Source: Achromobacter spanius
GTDB taxonomy: Bacteria > Pseudomonadota > Gammaproteobacteria > Burkholderiales > Burkholderiaceae_B
Reading direction: 5' to 3'
NCBI RefSeq assembly: GCF_029637605.1
Contig: NZ_CP121261.1
Coordinates: forward strand, 6,138,001 to 6,202,000
Length of the DNA: 64,000 nt
In this document: in pieces, positions 19,426-22,415 of the stretch
Position numbering within the stretch: the stretch's first letter is position 1
Layout: every line of letters starts with the position of its first letter
The notes under the pieces: generated by a model
Told to the model about the DNA's origin: nothing
What the model saw: the letters and a program-made list of their open reading frames with translations, nothing else
The model's database searches: none
Program-made: the position numbers and the translations under genes

Positions 19426-20724
19426 ATGAATGCACTGAACGATTCTTTTCTTTCCGGCGCCGGCACGGGCGTGCTGCGCTTGATCACGGCGGGTTCCGTC
19501 GATGACGGCAAGTCCACCTTGATCGGCCGCTTGCTCTACGACAGCAAGGGCGTGTTCGCCGACCAGCTGGACGCCATCTCGCGCGCCAAGCACAAGCGGG
19601 TCGCGGGCGACGGCATCGACTTTTCGCTGCTGACCGACGGCCTGGAAGCCGAGCGCGAGCAGGGCATCACCATCGACGTGGCCTACCGCTATTTCTCCAC
19701 GCCCGCGCGCAAGTTCATCATCGCGGACGCGCCGGGCCACGAGCAGTACACCCGCAATATGGTGACGGGCGCATCGACGGCGGATGTGGCGGTCATACTC
19801 ATCGACGCGACGCGCGCGGCCGACGGCAAGCTGTTGCCGCAGACCAAGCGGCACAGCACGATCGCGCGGCTGCTGGGCATCCGCCACATTGTGGTGGCGG
19901 TGAACAAGATGGACCTGGTGGATTGGGACCGCGCCGTGTTCGACCGCATCCGCGATGCGTATGCGGACCTGGCCACCAAACTGGGCATTGCGCATTTTGA
20001 TGTGCTGCCGTTGTCGGCGCTTAATGGCGACAACGTGGTGACGCTGTCGCCCAAGACGCCTTGGTACGAAGGCCAGCCCTTGCTGGCGTTGCTGGAATCG
20101 TTGGATCTTGCCAGCGACGGGCGCGCGTTGCCGCTGCGCTTTCCGGTGCAATGGGTGGCGCGGCACGGTGGCGATCAGAAGGAAGACTTTCGCGGCTACG
20201 CGGGGCGCGTGGCCAGCGGCGTGCTGCGCGCGGGCGATGCTGTCACGGTGCAACCGTCGGGCGTGACGGCGGTGGTTCGCGAGGTGCGCGTGTTCGACCG
20301 CGTGTTGGATGAGGCGGTGGCCGGCGATTCCGTCACGCTGGTGTTGGACCGTGATGTGGACGTGTCGCGCGGCGACGTGATCGTGCACACCGCCGCGCCC
20401 GCGCAAGTGACGCGCGAGTTCGAAGCCGAGCTCTGCTGGCTGGATGCGCAAGCCTTGAATCCGGCACGCAAGTATCTGTTGAAGTCGGGCACGCGACTGA
20501 CGTCGGCGAAGATTCGCGCGGTGCTGTCGCATCGCGACATCCACGAATTGCAGGAAGTCGAGAACACCGAAGGCACCTTGCAGATGAACGACATTGGTCG
20601 CGTGACCTTCACCACGCGCGAGGCCTTGGCAGTGGATCGCTATGCCGATGTTCCGGCCACGGGGGCCTTTATTTTGATCGACGAAGCCACGCATCAGACT
20701 GCGGCGGCGGGCATGTTGCGTTAG
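19426..20724 (+). CDS. cysN: Sulfate adenylyltransferase subunit 1 (regulatory GTPase)
   Basis: EF-Tu-like GTPase whose GTP hydrolysis drives APS synthesis by CysD. 432 residues: G1 GSVDDGKS (23-30), G3 DAPGHEQYTRNM, G4 NKMD, then two beta-barrel domains. There is no C-terminal APS kinase domain, so it is the short form. The ATG at 19426 is chosen because AGGGGAC sits just upstream; an upstream ATG at 19387 would add 13 residues of unlikely composition. Last gene of the cys operon, followed by a terminator. Confidence 0.94.
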   Translation: MNALNDSFLSGAGTGVLRLITAGSVDDGKSTLIGRLLYDSKGVFADQLDAISRAKHKRVAGDGIDFSLLTDGLEAEREQGITIDVAYRYFSTPARKFIIADAPGHEQYTRNMVTGASTADVAVILIDATRAADGKLLPQTKRHSTIARLLGIRHIVVAVNKMDLVDWDRAVFDRIRDAYADLATKLGIAHFDVLPLSALNGDNVVTLSPKTPWYEGQPLLALLESLDLASDGRALPLRFPVQWVARHGGDQKEDFRGYAGRVASGVLRAGDAVTVQPSGVTAVVREVRVFDRVLDEAVAGDSVTLVLDRDVDVSRGDVIVHTAAPAQVTREFEAELCWLDAQALNPARKYLLKSGTRLTSAKIRAVLSHRDIHELQEVENTEGTLQMNDIGRVTFTTREALAVDRYADVPATGAFILIDEATHQTAAAGMLR

Positions 20725-20733
20725 GCCGGGATT

Positions 20734-20769
20734 GGGCTGGAAAACAACGAATTTTCAGCCCTTTTTTTT
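20734..20769 (+). terminator. Rho-independent terminator after cysN
   Basis: Stem GGGCTGGAAAA / TTTTCAGCCC, with one extra base on the left arm, followed by eight T. It ends the sulfate operon. Confidence 0.88.
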
Positions 20770-20808
20770 GTGTTGTATTTCTGCCAAACGTAATGCTGGT
20801 GCGGGTTT

Positions 20809-20826
20809 CCAGGCGATATCGCCTGG
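20809..20826. repeat. 18-bp perfect palindrome upstream of the SOS radical SAM gene
   Basis: CCAGGCGATATCGCCTGG reads the same on both strands. It lies 111 bases before the radical SAM start codon. A second inverted repeat (AGACGCG / CGCGTCT, 20843-20859) follows it. No known regulator is assigned. Confidence 0.6.
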
Positions 20827-20900
20827 TGAAATCGATTTGTTCAGACGCGCTCCGCGTCTTGCGGTAAAGTGGGGCTGTTTTACGAAAAGGCTTTTGGTGC

Positions 20901-20929
20901 TTGTCAAAACCACTGTGTTTTTGTACAGT
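20901..20929 (+). promoter_or_regulatory. Promoter overlapped by a LexA (SOS) box
   Basis: The LexA core CTGT-N8-ACAG is exact at 20913-20928 (CTGTGTTTTTGTACAG). A sigma-70 promoter spans the same bases: -35 TTGTCA (20901-20906), 17-base spacer, -10 TACAGT (20924-20929). LexA bound here would cover the spacer and the -10 element. The predicted transcription start is about 20936, at the ATG of the next gene (20937). Repression by LexA is inferred from the site match. Confidence 0.85.
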
Positions 20930-20936
20930 AGTTTTT

Positions 20937-22415
20937 ATGGCACGCACCGATCATTCTTTTCCCGCCGGTTCTGGGTCCCCGGCTGCCGCCCCCGCCGCCT
21001 TGCGCGGTCGGGGTGCGGTTACTAATGTTCGGCATCGCTTTCAGCGCGATGACCGTGTGCAGGTCGATGACGGCTGGTCCGGCTCCGGCCTGCCAGCGGA
21101 TTTCGTCGAATCCGTCCCTGATAATTCCTCCGACGATTCTCCCGAAAGCACGTCCGCCCATTCCCCCGCAGCCGGCTCTGGCTCCTTGCGCGGCGCGACG
21201 GTCATTCCCATCCTGCCCGATACGCGCCTGGAGCCGCCCGCTCCCAAGACGACGGTTACCGCGGAAGAAGCCCGCAAGATGCTGTCGCGCAATGATTCGC
21301 CCGATATCCCCTTCGACGTTGCCGTCAACCCTTACCGGGGTTGCGAGCACGGTTGCGTGTATTGCTACGCGCGGCCCACGCATTCCTACCTGGGCATGTC
21401 GCCCGGGCTGGATTTTGAAACCCGGCTGGTTGCCAAGGCCAACGCCGTCGAGGCCTTGCGCGCCGAGCTCGCGCGCCCTGGCTATAAGCCGTCGCCCATC
21501 AATATCGGTTCTGCTACCGACGCCTACCAGCCCATCGAACGCGACTGGCGCCTGACGCGCGGCATGCTGGAATTGATGCTGGAAACCCGGCATCCGGTAA
21601 CCATCGTGACCAAGAACGCGCTGGTGGCGCGCGACCTGGACCTGCTGGCGGCGCTGGCGGAACAGAATCTGGTGGTGGTCTACATCAGCATCACCACGCT
21701 GGACGCCGGCATGGCCCGCACGCTGGAACCGCGTGCGGCAGCGCCCTGGCGGCGGCTGGAAGCCGTGCGCAGCCTGACGGATGCCGGCGTGCCGGTGGGC
21801 GTGCTGGTGGCGCCGGTCATTCCGTTCATCAACGACGAATCCATGGAACACATCCTCCAGGAGTCCAAGGCGGCAGGCGCGCATTACGCCAGCTACACCG
21901 TCTTGCGCCTGCCCTGGGAGGTCAAGACCCTGTTCGAAGACTGGCTCAACGCCCATTACCCCGACCGCGCGCAGCGTGTGTTGCACCGCATAGAAGACCT
22001 GCGCAATGGTCGCCGCAATGATCCGAATTTCGGTTCGCGGATGCGCGGTACAGGCATCTGGGCAGACTTGCTGCGTCAGCGCTTTGCCGTTGCCACCCGC
22101 AAGCTGGGGCTGAACCGCCACCGTCTGGCGCTGGATTGCGATCGCTTCCAGCCCCCGGTGATGGCAGGGGGTACGCCCTCGCTGTTCGCTGCGGGCTTTG
22201 CGGCTGGCTCTGCCGGTGGGTTTTCGGGTGCCACCTCTTTGGGTGCCAGGTCTTCAGGTGCCACCTCTTCTTCCGATTTCCTATCCCCGGTTGGCGCGCA
22301 AGCGTCTTCAGGGGTCCCCCATTCTGGCGGGTTGCCCGCAGTCAGCGGCGCCTATGGGCGCGGCGAACGCCAATTGCGCGCGTTGGCGGCTGGCCAGTTG
22401 TCGCTGTTCGATTGA
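20937..22415 (+). CDS. PA0069-family radical SAM protein, probably SOS-induced
   Basis: Radical SAM enzyme of unknown reaction, related to SplB/Rv2578c-type proteins. The 492-residue protein has the cluster motif CxxxCxxC in GCEHGCVYCYARPTH (Cys136, 140, 143), preceded by VNPYRG and followed by NIGSATDAYQPIER. The last 100 or so residues are low-complexity Gly/Ala/Ser with a repeated GATS element. The ATG at 20937 is chosen because the promoter and LexA box end just upstream; an in-frame TTG at 20901 would put them inside the gene. In Pseudomonas aeruginosa the homologue PA0069 is a known LexA-regulon member, which agrees. DNA-lesion repair is plausible but unproven. Confidence 0.88.
   Translation: MARTDHSFPAGSGSPAAAPAALRGRGAVTNVRHRFQRDDRVQVDDGWSGSGLPADFVESVPDNSSDDSPESTSAHSPAAGSGSLRGATVIPILPDTRLEPPAPKTTVTAEEARKMLSRNDSPDIPFDVAVNPYRGCEHGCVYCYARPTHSYLGMSPGLDFETRLVAKANAVEALRAELARPGYKPSPINIGSATDAYQPIERDWRLTRGMLELMLETRHPVTIVTKNALVARDLDLLAALAEQNLVVVYISITTLDAGMARTLEPRAAAPWRRLEAVRSLTDAGVPVGVLVAPVIPFINDESMEHILQESKAAGAHYASYTVLRLPWEVKTLFEDWLNAHYPDRAQRVLHRIEDLRNGRRNDPNFGSRMRGTGIWADLLRQRFAVATRKLGLNRHRLALDCDRFQPPVMAGGTPSLFAAGFAAGSAGGFSGATSLGARSSGATSSSDFLSPVGAQASSGVPHSGGLPAVSGAYGRGERQLRALAAGQLSLFD

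Follow-up and report, generated by a model that had tools for sequence, protein, structure and literature searches.

A predicted leaderless SOS promoter and a constrained coding-region element at a PA0069-family radical SAM gene of Achromobacter spanius

The gene described here lies in a window of 64,000 nucleotides from Achromobacter spanius (contig NZ_CP121261.1, positions 6,138,001 to 6,202,000; the window is this whole stretch, and positions are counted from its first letter) and encodes a radical SAM (S-adenosylmethionine) protein of the PA0069 family. A putative binding site for the SOS repressor LexA, a predicted core promoter and the start codon of the gene are directly adjacent or overlap, and a nearly invariant nucleotide element is located within the first codons. 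The features of this unit are the following:

20901..20906, plus strand: -35 hexamer TTGTCA, from the promoter scan and its conservation in the clade of 42 relatives described below
20913..20928, plus strand: LexA box CTGTGTTTTTGTACAG, a predicted operator with an exact match to CTGT-N8-ACAG that is kept in orthologues
20924..20929, plus strand: -10 hexamer TACAGT, built from the right half of the LexA box, from the promoter scan and its conservation in the clade
20937..20939, plus strand: ATG start codon and predicted transcription start of a leaderless transcript, from the distance to the box and the lack of a Shine-Dalgarno sequence
20937..22415, plus strand: PA0069-family radical SAM protein of 492 amino acids with a fold like that of spore photoproduct lyase (SPL)
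about 20964..21028, plus strand: nearly invariant nucleotide element in codons 10-31 (positions 28-92 of the coding sequence, CDS), with possible hairpins at CDS 28-47 and 49-83

An earlier reading made from the sequence only had placed an exact LexA box at 20913-20928 inside a TTGTCA-17-TACAGT promoter, with the ATG at 20937 at the expected start, and the letters confirm this arrangement. The promoter is the sole sigma-70-like site that the scan detected within 20700-21050 (9 of 12 matches, shuffle mean 0.2). Seven bases separate the -10 hexamer from the A of the ATG at 20937, and transcription is therefore expected to start at the ATG or within a base of it; no Shine-Dalgarno sequence is present before this ATG.

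The box alone is weak evidence, since its counts nearly match those expected by chance: the window contains exactly one CTGT-N8-ACAG, with 0.60 expected and at least one found in 43 of 100 shuffles, and, as a point against LexA control, the genome contains 30 exact boxes compared with 29 sites for a reversed control pattern. Bare box counts were discarded as evidence for this reason, and the case is carried by the position and the conservation of the box. Among 151 sampled genomes from the GTDB family of A. spanius, 63 possess a PA0069-family member over the cut-off, and a box is found at most 23 nucleotides from the start in all 63 of them (50 exact, 13 with one mismatch). The similar genome-wide counts would suit a chance match; its conservation in place throughout the family sample, however, already refutes this explanation, to which we assign virtually no probability. 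The lexA gene of the genome (G000:C1:1973796) carries an exact box of its own 23 nucleotides 5' of its ATG, and the genome thus has a LexA that apparently uses the CTGT-N8-ACAG motif, as predicted from the sequence. The commonest one-mismatch variant of the box, CTGG, is also located before the genome's own recA (CTGGTTTTTTGTACAG).

Beyond the family, the picture changes. The sequence-only reading had proposed to scan for the box upstream of orthologues across Burkholderiales; the box held up in the GTDB family but not across the order. From an order sample of 150 genomes with 66 members over the cut-off, 30 loci were inspected, and only five of them have a box within 60 nucleotides of the start; the box is hence not general in the order. 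Among 80 named loci, many of them alpha- and gamma-proteobacterial and together the best 80 of at least 357 relatives, a box at this distance was found in 20, of which the script gave 19 and L034 is the other. Both counts weigh against LexA control as a general trait of the gene; they refer to this motif, other LexA motifs not having been searched, and the groups without the box may use other LexA motifs. For the radical SAM gene of the window, LexA control is very probable, with the binding predicted from the conserved box.

A protein tree of the relatives (138 of 173 rows; the 35 omitted rows are mostly alpha-proteobacterial) places the gene of the window in a clade of 42 rows, in which the distance between box and start codon is fixed. 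The gap is 7 or 8 nucleotides in all 42 members (41 by script, whereas the gap of 7 in L034 was read separately); in L157, the ATG lies at a gap of 8, and an overlapping GTG was taken as the start by the script. The upstream columns are readable in 40 members, as L033 lies at a contig edge and L034 is absent from the 41 of the script. In all 40, a TTG is found 12 bases 5' of the box and the -10 hexamer reads TACAGT, and in both cases the surrounding bases vary. This fixed spacing without fixed sequence matches a transcription start that is tied to the start codon. A Shine-Dalgarno energy below -4 kcal/mol is reached by none of 41 clade members (mean -0.55) and by 16 of 26 genes in a comparison set (mean -4.83), which consists of 25 members of the gene's other clade in the bacterial family and L169, located elsewhere on the tree; L130, with one mismatch and 6 nucleotides between box and GTG, was excluded from it. 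In the other clade, the gaps amount to 12-23 bases.

Other SOS genes of the sampled relatives provide a second comparison. The gaps range from 9 to 67 nucleotides for lexA (median 11; 28 of 30 loci used, 27 with a box), from 2 to 150 for imuA (28 of 30 loci with a box) and from 31 to 171 for recA (26 of 30 loci used; 24 with a box, two of them of doubtful start), and a gap of 7 or 8 nucleotides was never seen in these three genes. The mean Shine-Dalgarno energy of recA is -3.88 (25 of 30 loci). Since the gaps of lexA, imuA and recA range widely and never amount to 7 or 8, it is the fixed gap that is unusual and not the short one. Two observations speak against a leaderless transcript throughout the clade: seven of 41 members reach a weak Shine-Dalgarno energy, between -2.2 and -4.0, and two of 41 start with GTG. 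On balance, the promoter spacing predicts with considerable confidence that the mRNA of the radical SAM gene is leaderless. Of the earlier claim of a LexA-blocked promoter without a leader, the architecture has thus stood, with the 7-8 nucleotide gap in 42 of 42 members and a Shine-Dalgarno energy below -4 kcal/mol in none of 41; LexA control of an splB-type gene is not new.

Short gaps of other kinds were also observed. The imuA gene of the genome (L007:2004-2024, G000:C1:1548753; L239) has its ATG 2 nucleotides after an exact box, and the gaps in three sampled relatives of the same genus are 25, 25 and 47 nucleotides. Five other rows of the tree (L037, L042, L047, L210, L217) show a box that ends one base 5' of the ATG, and a TATAAT-like hexamer within this box could represent a second leaderless register. 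Orthologues with an ATG 1-3 nucleotides after the box, which are these five and also L035 and L057, require five changes on the tree.

Two further features are located 5' of this promoter:

20734..20769, plus strand: terminator-like hairpin followed by a T run, 3' of a cysN-like gene, from the terminator scan
20859..20870, plus strand: upstream motif TTGCGGTAAAGT, 54 nucleotides 5' of the box, a possible second -10 hexamer or other site

The upstream motif raises the possibility that the main transcript starts further upstream, for example at TTGCGGTAAAGT, with LexA acting as a roadblock at 20913-20928 and a leader of about 60 nucleotides. Of 40 clade members, 29 keep a motif of this type (TTGnnGTAMAKT-like) at a distance of 42-55 nucleotides 5' of the box, and its changes still fit TAnAnT; this conservation of a -10-like motif weighs against a purely leaderless gene and makes a second, leadered transcript possible. 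However, 11 of the 40 members lack the motif by the pattern used and nevertheless keep the leaderless spacing, no -35 hexamer was seen at normal spacing, and the scan scores no promoter at TTGCGGTAAAGT and lists a weak terminator-like site at 20856-20875 instead. The leader of about 60 nucleotides would likewise have no Shine-Dalgarno sequence. An upstream start of the main transcript is therefore quite unlikely, and the start at the ATG is retained. The 5' neighbours are a gene with a PAPS-reductase domain and the cysN-like gene, which was named from its domains, followed by the terminator-like hairpin at 20734-20769. This hairpin presumably separates the cys genes from the radical SAM unit; in the scanned region, two terminator-like sites were found compared with a shuffle mean of 1.0.

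A second signal, which the sequence-only reading had not reported, lies within the coding region itself. Among ten orthologues of the same genus, 3 of 66 columns are variable in codons 2-23 compared with 22 of 81 in codons 24-50. Comparison of 40 of the 42 clade members (L033 and L154 were omitted) revealed a near-invariant stretch at CDS 28-92, which is common to 32 of them. The mean pair identity at fourfold sites is 0.921 in codons 10-31 (20 columns) compared with 0.567 in the rest of the gene (196 columns), and 14 of the 20 columns are invariant inside the stretch compared with 5 of 196 elsewhere. A covariance model of the stretch, which was searched with stricter filters that lose weak matches, gives a single match per genome in 28 of the 151 genomes of the family sample, always 42-567 bases before the profile match of the gene and on the same strand. 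The source genome contains one full-length copy; its other 39 matches are short GC-rich pieces.

The stretch could in principle be frozen solely through an essential N-terminal peptide or through codon preference, and the encoded AGSGSPAAAPAALRGRGAVTN is indeed conserved, with changes at few residues. What argues against this is the behaviour of the codons: where the residue is identical in all 32 members, a single codon is used throughout at 11 of 17 columns inside the stretch and at 1 of 139 outside, and several of the kept codons are rare in the remainder of the same genes (ACT 0.04, GCT 0.07 and GTT 0.08 of the codons of the respective residue). At codon 12, the residue itself varies (S, F, L, T, Y) and the third base is a T in 32 of 32. 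The same codon-constraint test gave no signal in recA (25), in imuA (30, read from ten codons before the profile match and not from the start codon) or in the other clade of the gene (25). The peptide or codon-preference explanation is thus already disfavoured and must be considered very unlikely. An overlapping reading frame was also rejected as the cause: counted by codon position in the radical SAM frame, the variable sites of CDS 28-84 (12 in all) number 6, 4 and 2 at positions 3, 1 and 2, a distribution that no other frame fits better. A mobile or phage origin was dismissed, as an exact search of the viral collection with the core pattern gave nothing and the genome carries a single full-length copy.

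One point reduces the weight of these comparisons: the 32 rows with the element comprise only 22 different 96-mers and are mutually related. The element is missing in 8 of the 40 members. The leaderless promoter is kept in those eight, and element and promoter can therefore exist apart. The constraint at the nucleotide level argues that a second nucleic-acid signal in the coding region is almost certainly real.

Whether this signal acts as RNA or as DNA is a separate matter. In the predicted fold, a hairpin of 5 pairs (P1) joins CDS 28-32 with 43-47, and a hairpin of 14 pairs (P2) joins CDS 49-62 with 68-83 and is interrupted by single-base bulges at 72 and 78. Folding of a single sequence also suggested that CDS 12-19 pairs with 88-95, but this helix was dropped because it is broken in several relatives. 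The variable sites of CDS 28-84 concentrate in the unpaired positions, with 10 of 12 falling in these 19 positions (P 1e-4), and among third positions none of the 9 paired ones varies, compared with 6 of the 10 unpaired ones (Fisher p 0.008). The genomes are related, however, and the sites are therefore not independent. At CDS 49, only G or A is found, either of which pairs with U83, and the synonymous sites are constrained as expected for a cis-acting structured RNA. Several results weigh against RNA. No pair shows compensatory changes, and 17 of 19 pairs never vary. The predicted folding of the stretch does not surpass that of dinucleotide shuffles (z -0.76) or of random-codon versions that encode the same protein (four rows, fractions 0.12-0.59). 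No Rfam family was found in 20700-21400, where the best of 4 matches with E<=5 has an E of 0.82, far below the cut-offs. Furthermore, the unpaired loop at CDS 36-42 is invariant and the unpaired tail at CDS 84-92 nearly so.

The main rival to an RNA element is a DNA site at 20964-21028 that would be bound by a second regulator or a nucleoid protein. The lack of covariation, the invariant P1 loop and the nearly invariant tail are consistent with such a site, and the GCCGG-N10-CCGGC dyad would suit an operator; on the other hand, variation concentrates where loops and bulges of one base are predicted, features without an evident role in a duplex, and 65 bp is long for a single operator. A DNA site thus appears doubtful, and RNA is the reading that we favour to a moderate degree for the second signal.

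The protein passes the curated cut-off of the profile NF033668 (PA0069 family radical SAM protein) with 475.8 bits compared with 360, and it is a member of this family by that measure. In the subgroup of the window, as distinct from the profile, the N-terminus is longer and encodes the constrained element, and residues extend beyond the profile end (417 of 492); in the other clade within the bacterial family, most members start a few codons before the KGRG motif. A fold search matched the fold of spore photoproduct lyase at 17% identity. A phmmer search against the sequences of solved structures gave no match, and a profile search of solved structures gave weak radical SAM matches, the best of which was SkfB, and unrelated ones. 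The cluster motif CxxxCxxC (C136, C140, C143) is present in all of 76 aligned sequences, which were picked from a list of 106 diverse members. No fourth conserved cysteine was found in these 76 members, where every cysteine column outside the cluster reaches at most 46%; the exact SPL-equivalent residue was not mapped.

The missing cysteine bears on the function of the protein. SPL requires a fourth cysteine as H-atom donor, which is C141 in B. subtilis (C141/C140), according to the excerpt consulted (PMC3742179). The 2012 proposal of a true photoreactivation enzyme (SplB) would agree with the SPL fold and with SOS control of the gene; however, the 76 members conserve the three cluster cysteines only, which makes plain photoproduct repair doubtful and the SplB assignment unlikely. 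The window protein hence shares its fold with SPL and differs from it in the fourth cysteine. Since the fold is that of spore photoproduct lyase, the enzyme most likely acts on nucleic acid, with a reaction other than the classical reversal of the spore photoproduct, and the earlier description of the gene as an uncharacterised radical SAM step remains fair. Conserved neighbours were dropped as a clue to function, as no neighbouring family occurs in more than 9 of the 80 named loci. An RNase HII-like gene, recognized by eye, lies near the radical SAM gene in 8 of the 80, for example L098, mostly in alpha-proteobacteria. Two members (G197:C9:108359-110446 and G286:C7:97359-99446) have frames of 703 and 722 amino acids and match the profile in two parts, divided at about position 73-80; such split matches would fit an in-frame, intein-like insert.

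PA0069 itself presumably belongs to the LexA regulon of Pseudomonas, which a literature search did not confirm: no paper was found that treats PA0069 together with LexA, and the paper that names PA0069 uses it as an insertion site. Likewise, titles and abstract openings, with few subscription papers covered, contained nothing on a leaderless promoter of the gene or on its control in Achromobacter or Bordetella. SOS control of this kind of gene has been described. LexA control of splB was predicted in alpha- and beta-proteobacteria in a comparative study of 2012 and read as photoreactivation (PMC3323433), SplB (COG1533) was called SOS-regulated in several species (PMC8565304), and SplB-like enzymes were linked to SOS (PMC3765255), in each case according to the excerpts consulted. 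The gene kind and the regulator of the splB/COG1533 systems are the same as here, and the fold search also pointed to SPL; the excerpts of these papers (PMC3323433; PMC8565304) report regulation alone, with neither a leaderless promoter nor a coding-region element, and their splB could belong to the PA0069 family. Leaderless messages are ordinary in Burkholderiales: in Cupriavidus metallidurans, they account for 4.67% of primary starts and are enriched in transcription and in replication, recombination and repair, as stated in the excerpt of that study (PMC7563307). In contrast to these messages, operator, promoter and start codon are fused in the gene of the window, with a spacing that is fixed clade-wide.

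LexA is cleaved after DNA damage. With fair confidence, the best explanation for the whole is a leaderless SOS gene with a second signal in its coding region. Judging from its position, LexA bound to CTGTGTTTTTGTACAG, whose right half forms the -10 hexamer, would directly block RNA polymerase; after damage and cleavage of LexA, transcription would begin with the A of the ATG, and translation would proceed from the 5' end of the mRNA without a Shine-Dalgarno sequence. The predicted product is a PA0069-family radical SAM enzyme with an SPL fold and a nucleic-acid substrate. In most of the clade, the mRNA would carry the second signal in coding nucleotides 28-92, most likely a cis-acting RNA element of two GC-rich hairpins that may set translation or stability. 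The box, the promoter, its spacing, the lack of a Shine-Dalgarno sequence and the nucleotide constraint come from comparison of the sequences, and LexA binding, the start point, the RNA nature and role of the element and the enzyme substrate are what we infer from them. The full combination, in which a leaderless SOS mRNA has a conserved cis-acting RNA element in its first 95 coding nucleotides and thus unites operator, core promoter, start codon and riboregulator, is put forward tentatively, as a possibility that falls short of an even chance.

If the prediction holds, the clade would possess an evolutionarily fixed SOS promoter without a leader, in which repression is bound to evolve together with the site of translation start, and a strong signal at the nucleotide level, located in coding sequence, that is invisible to protein-based annotation. 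The photoreactivation role proposed in the literature for SOS-controlled SplB-like proteins would be in doubt as far as these are members of the PA0069 family. It is even conceivable that the SPL-fold enzyme binds the element in its own mRNA.

Further boxes were noted at other loci. A second copy of the identical 16-mer box (L022:2006-2021, G000:C1:4957345) lies before a gentisate-dioxygenase-like gene, which is below the cut-off of the gentisate dioxygenase family and not an obvious SOS gene. At L001:2051-2090, two exact CTGT-N8-ACAG boxes are located 8 nucleotides apart, and 116 nucleotides separate the nearer one from the open frame that follows, which spans at least 632 codons. Two other boxes (L025 and L027; G000:C1:5594781 and 5641193) are separated by about 46 kb, and close to each lies the same tRNA-like end sequence, an arrangement that resembles the two ends of an integrated element.
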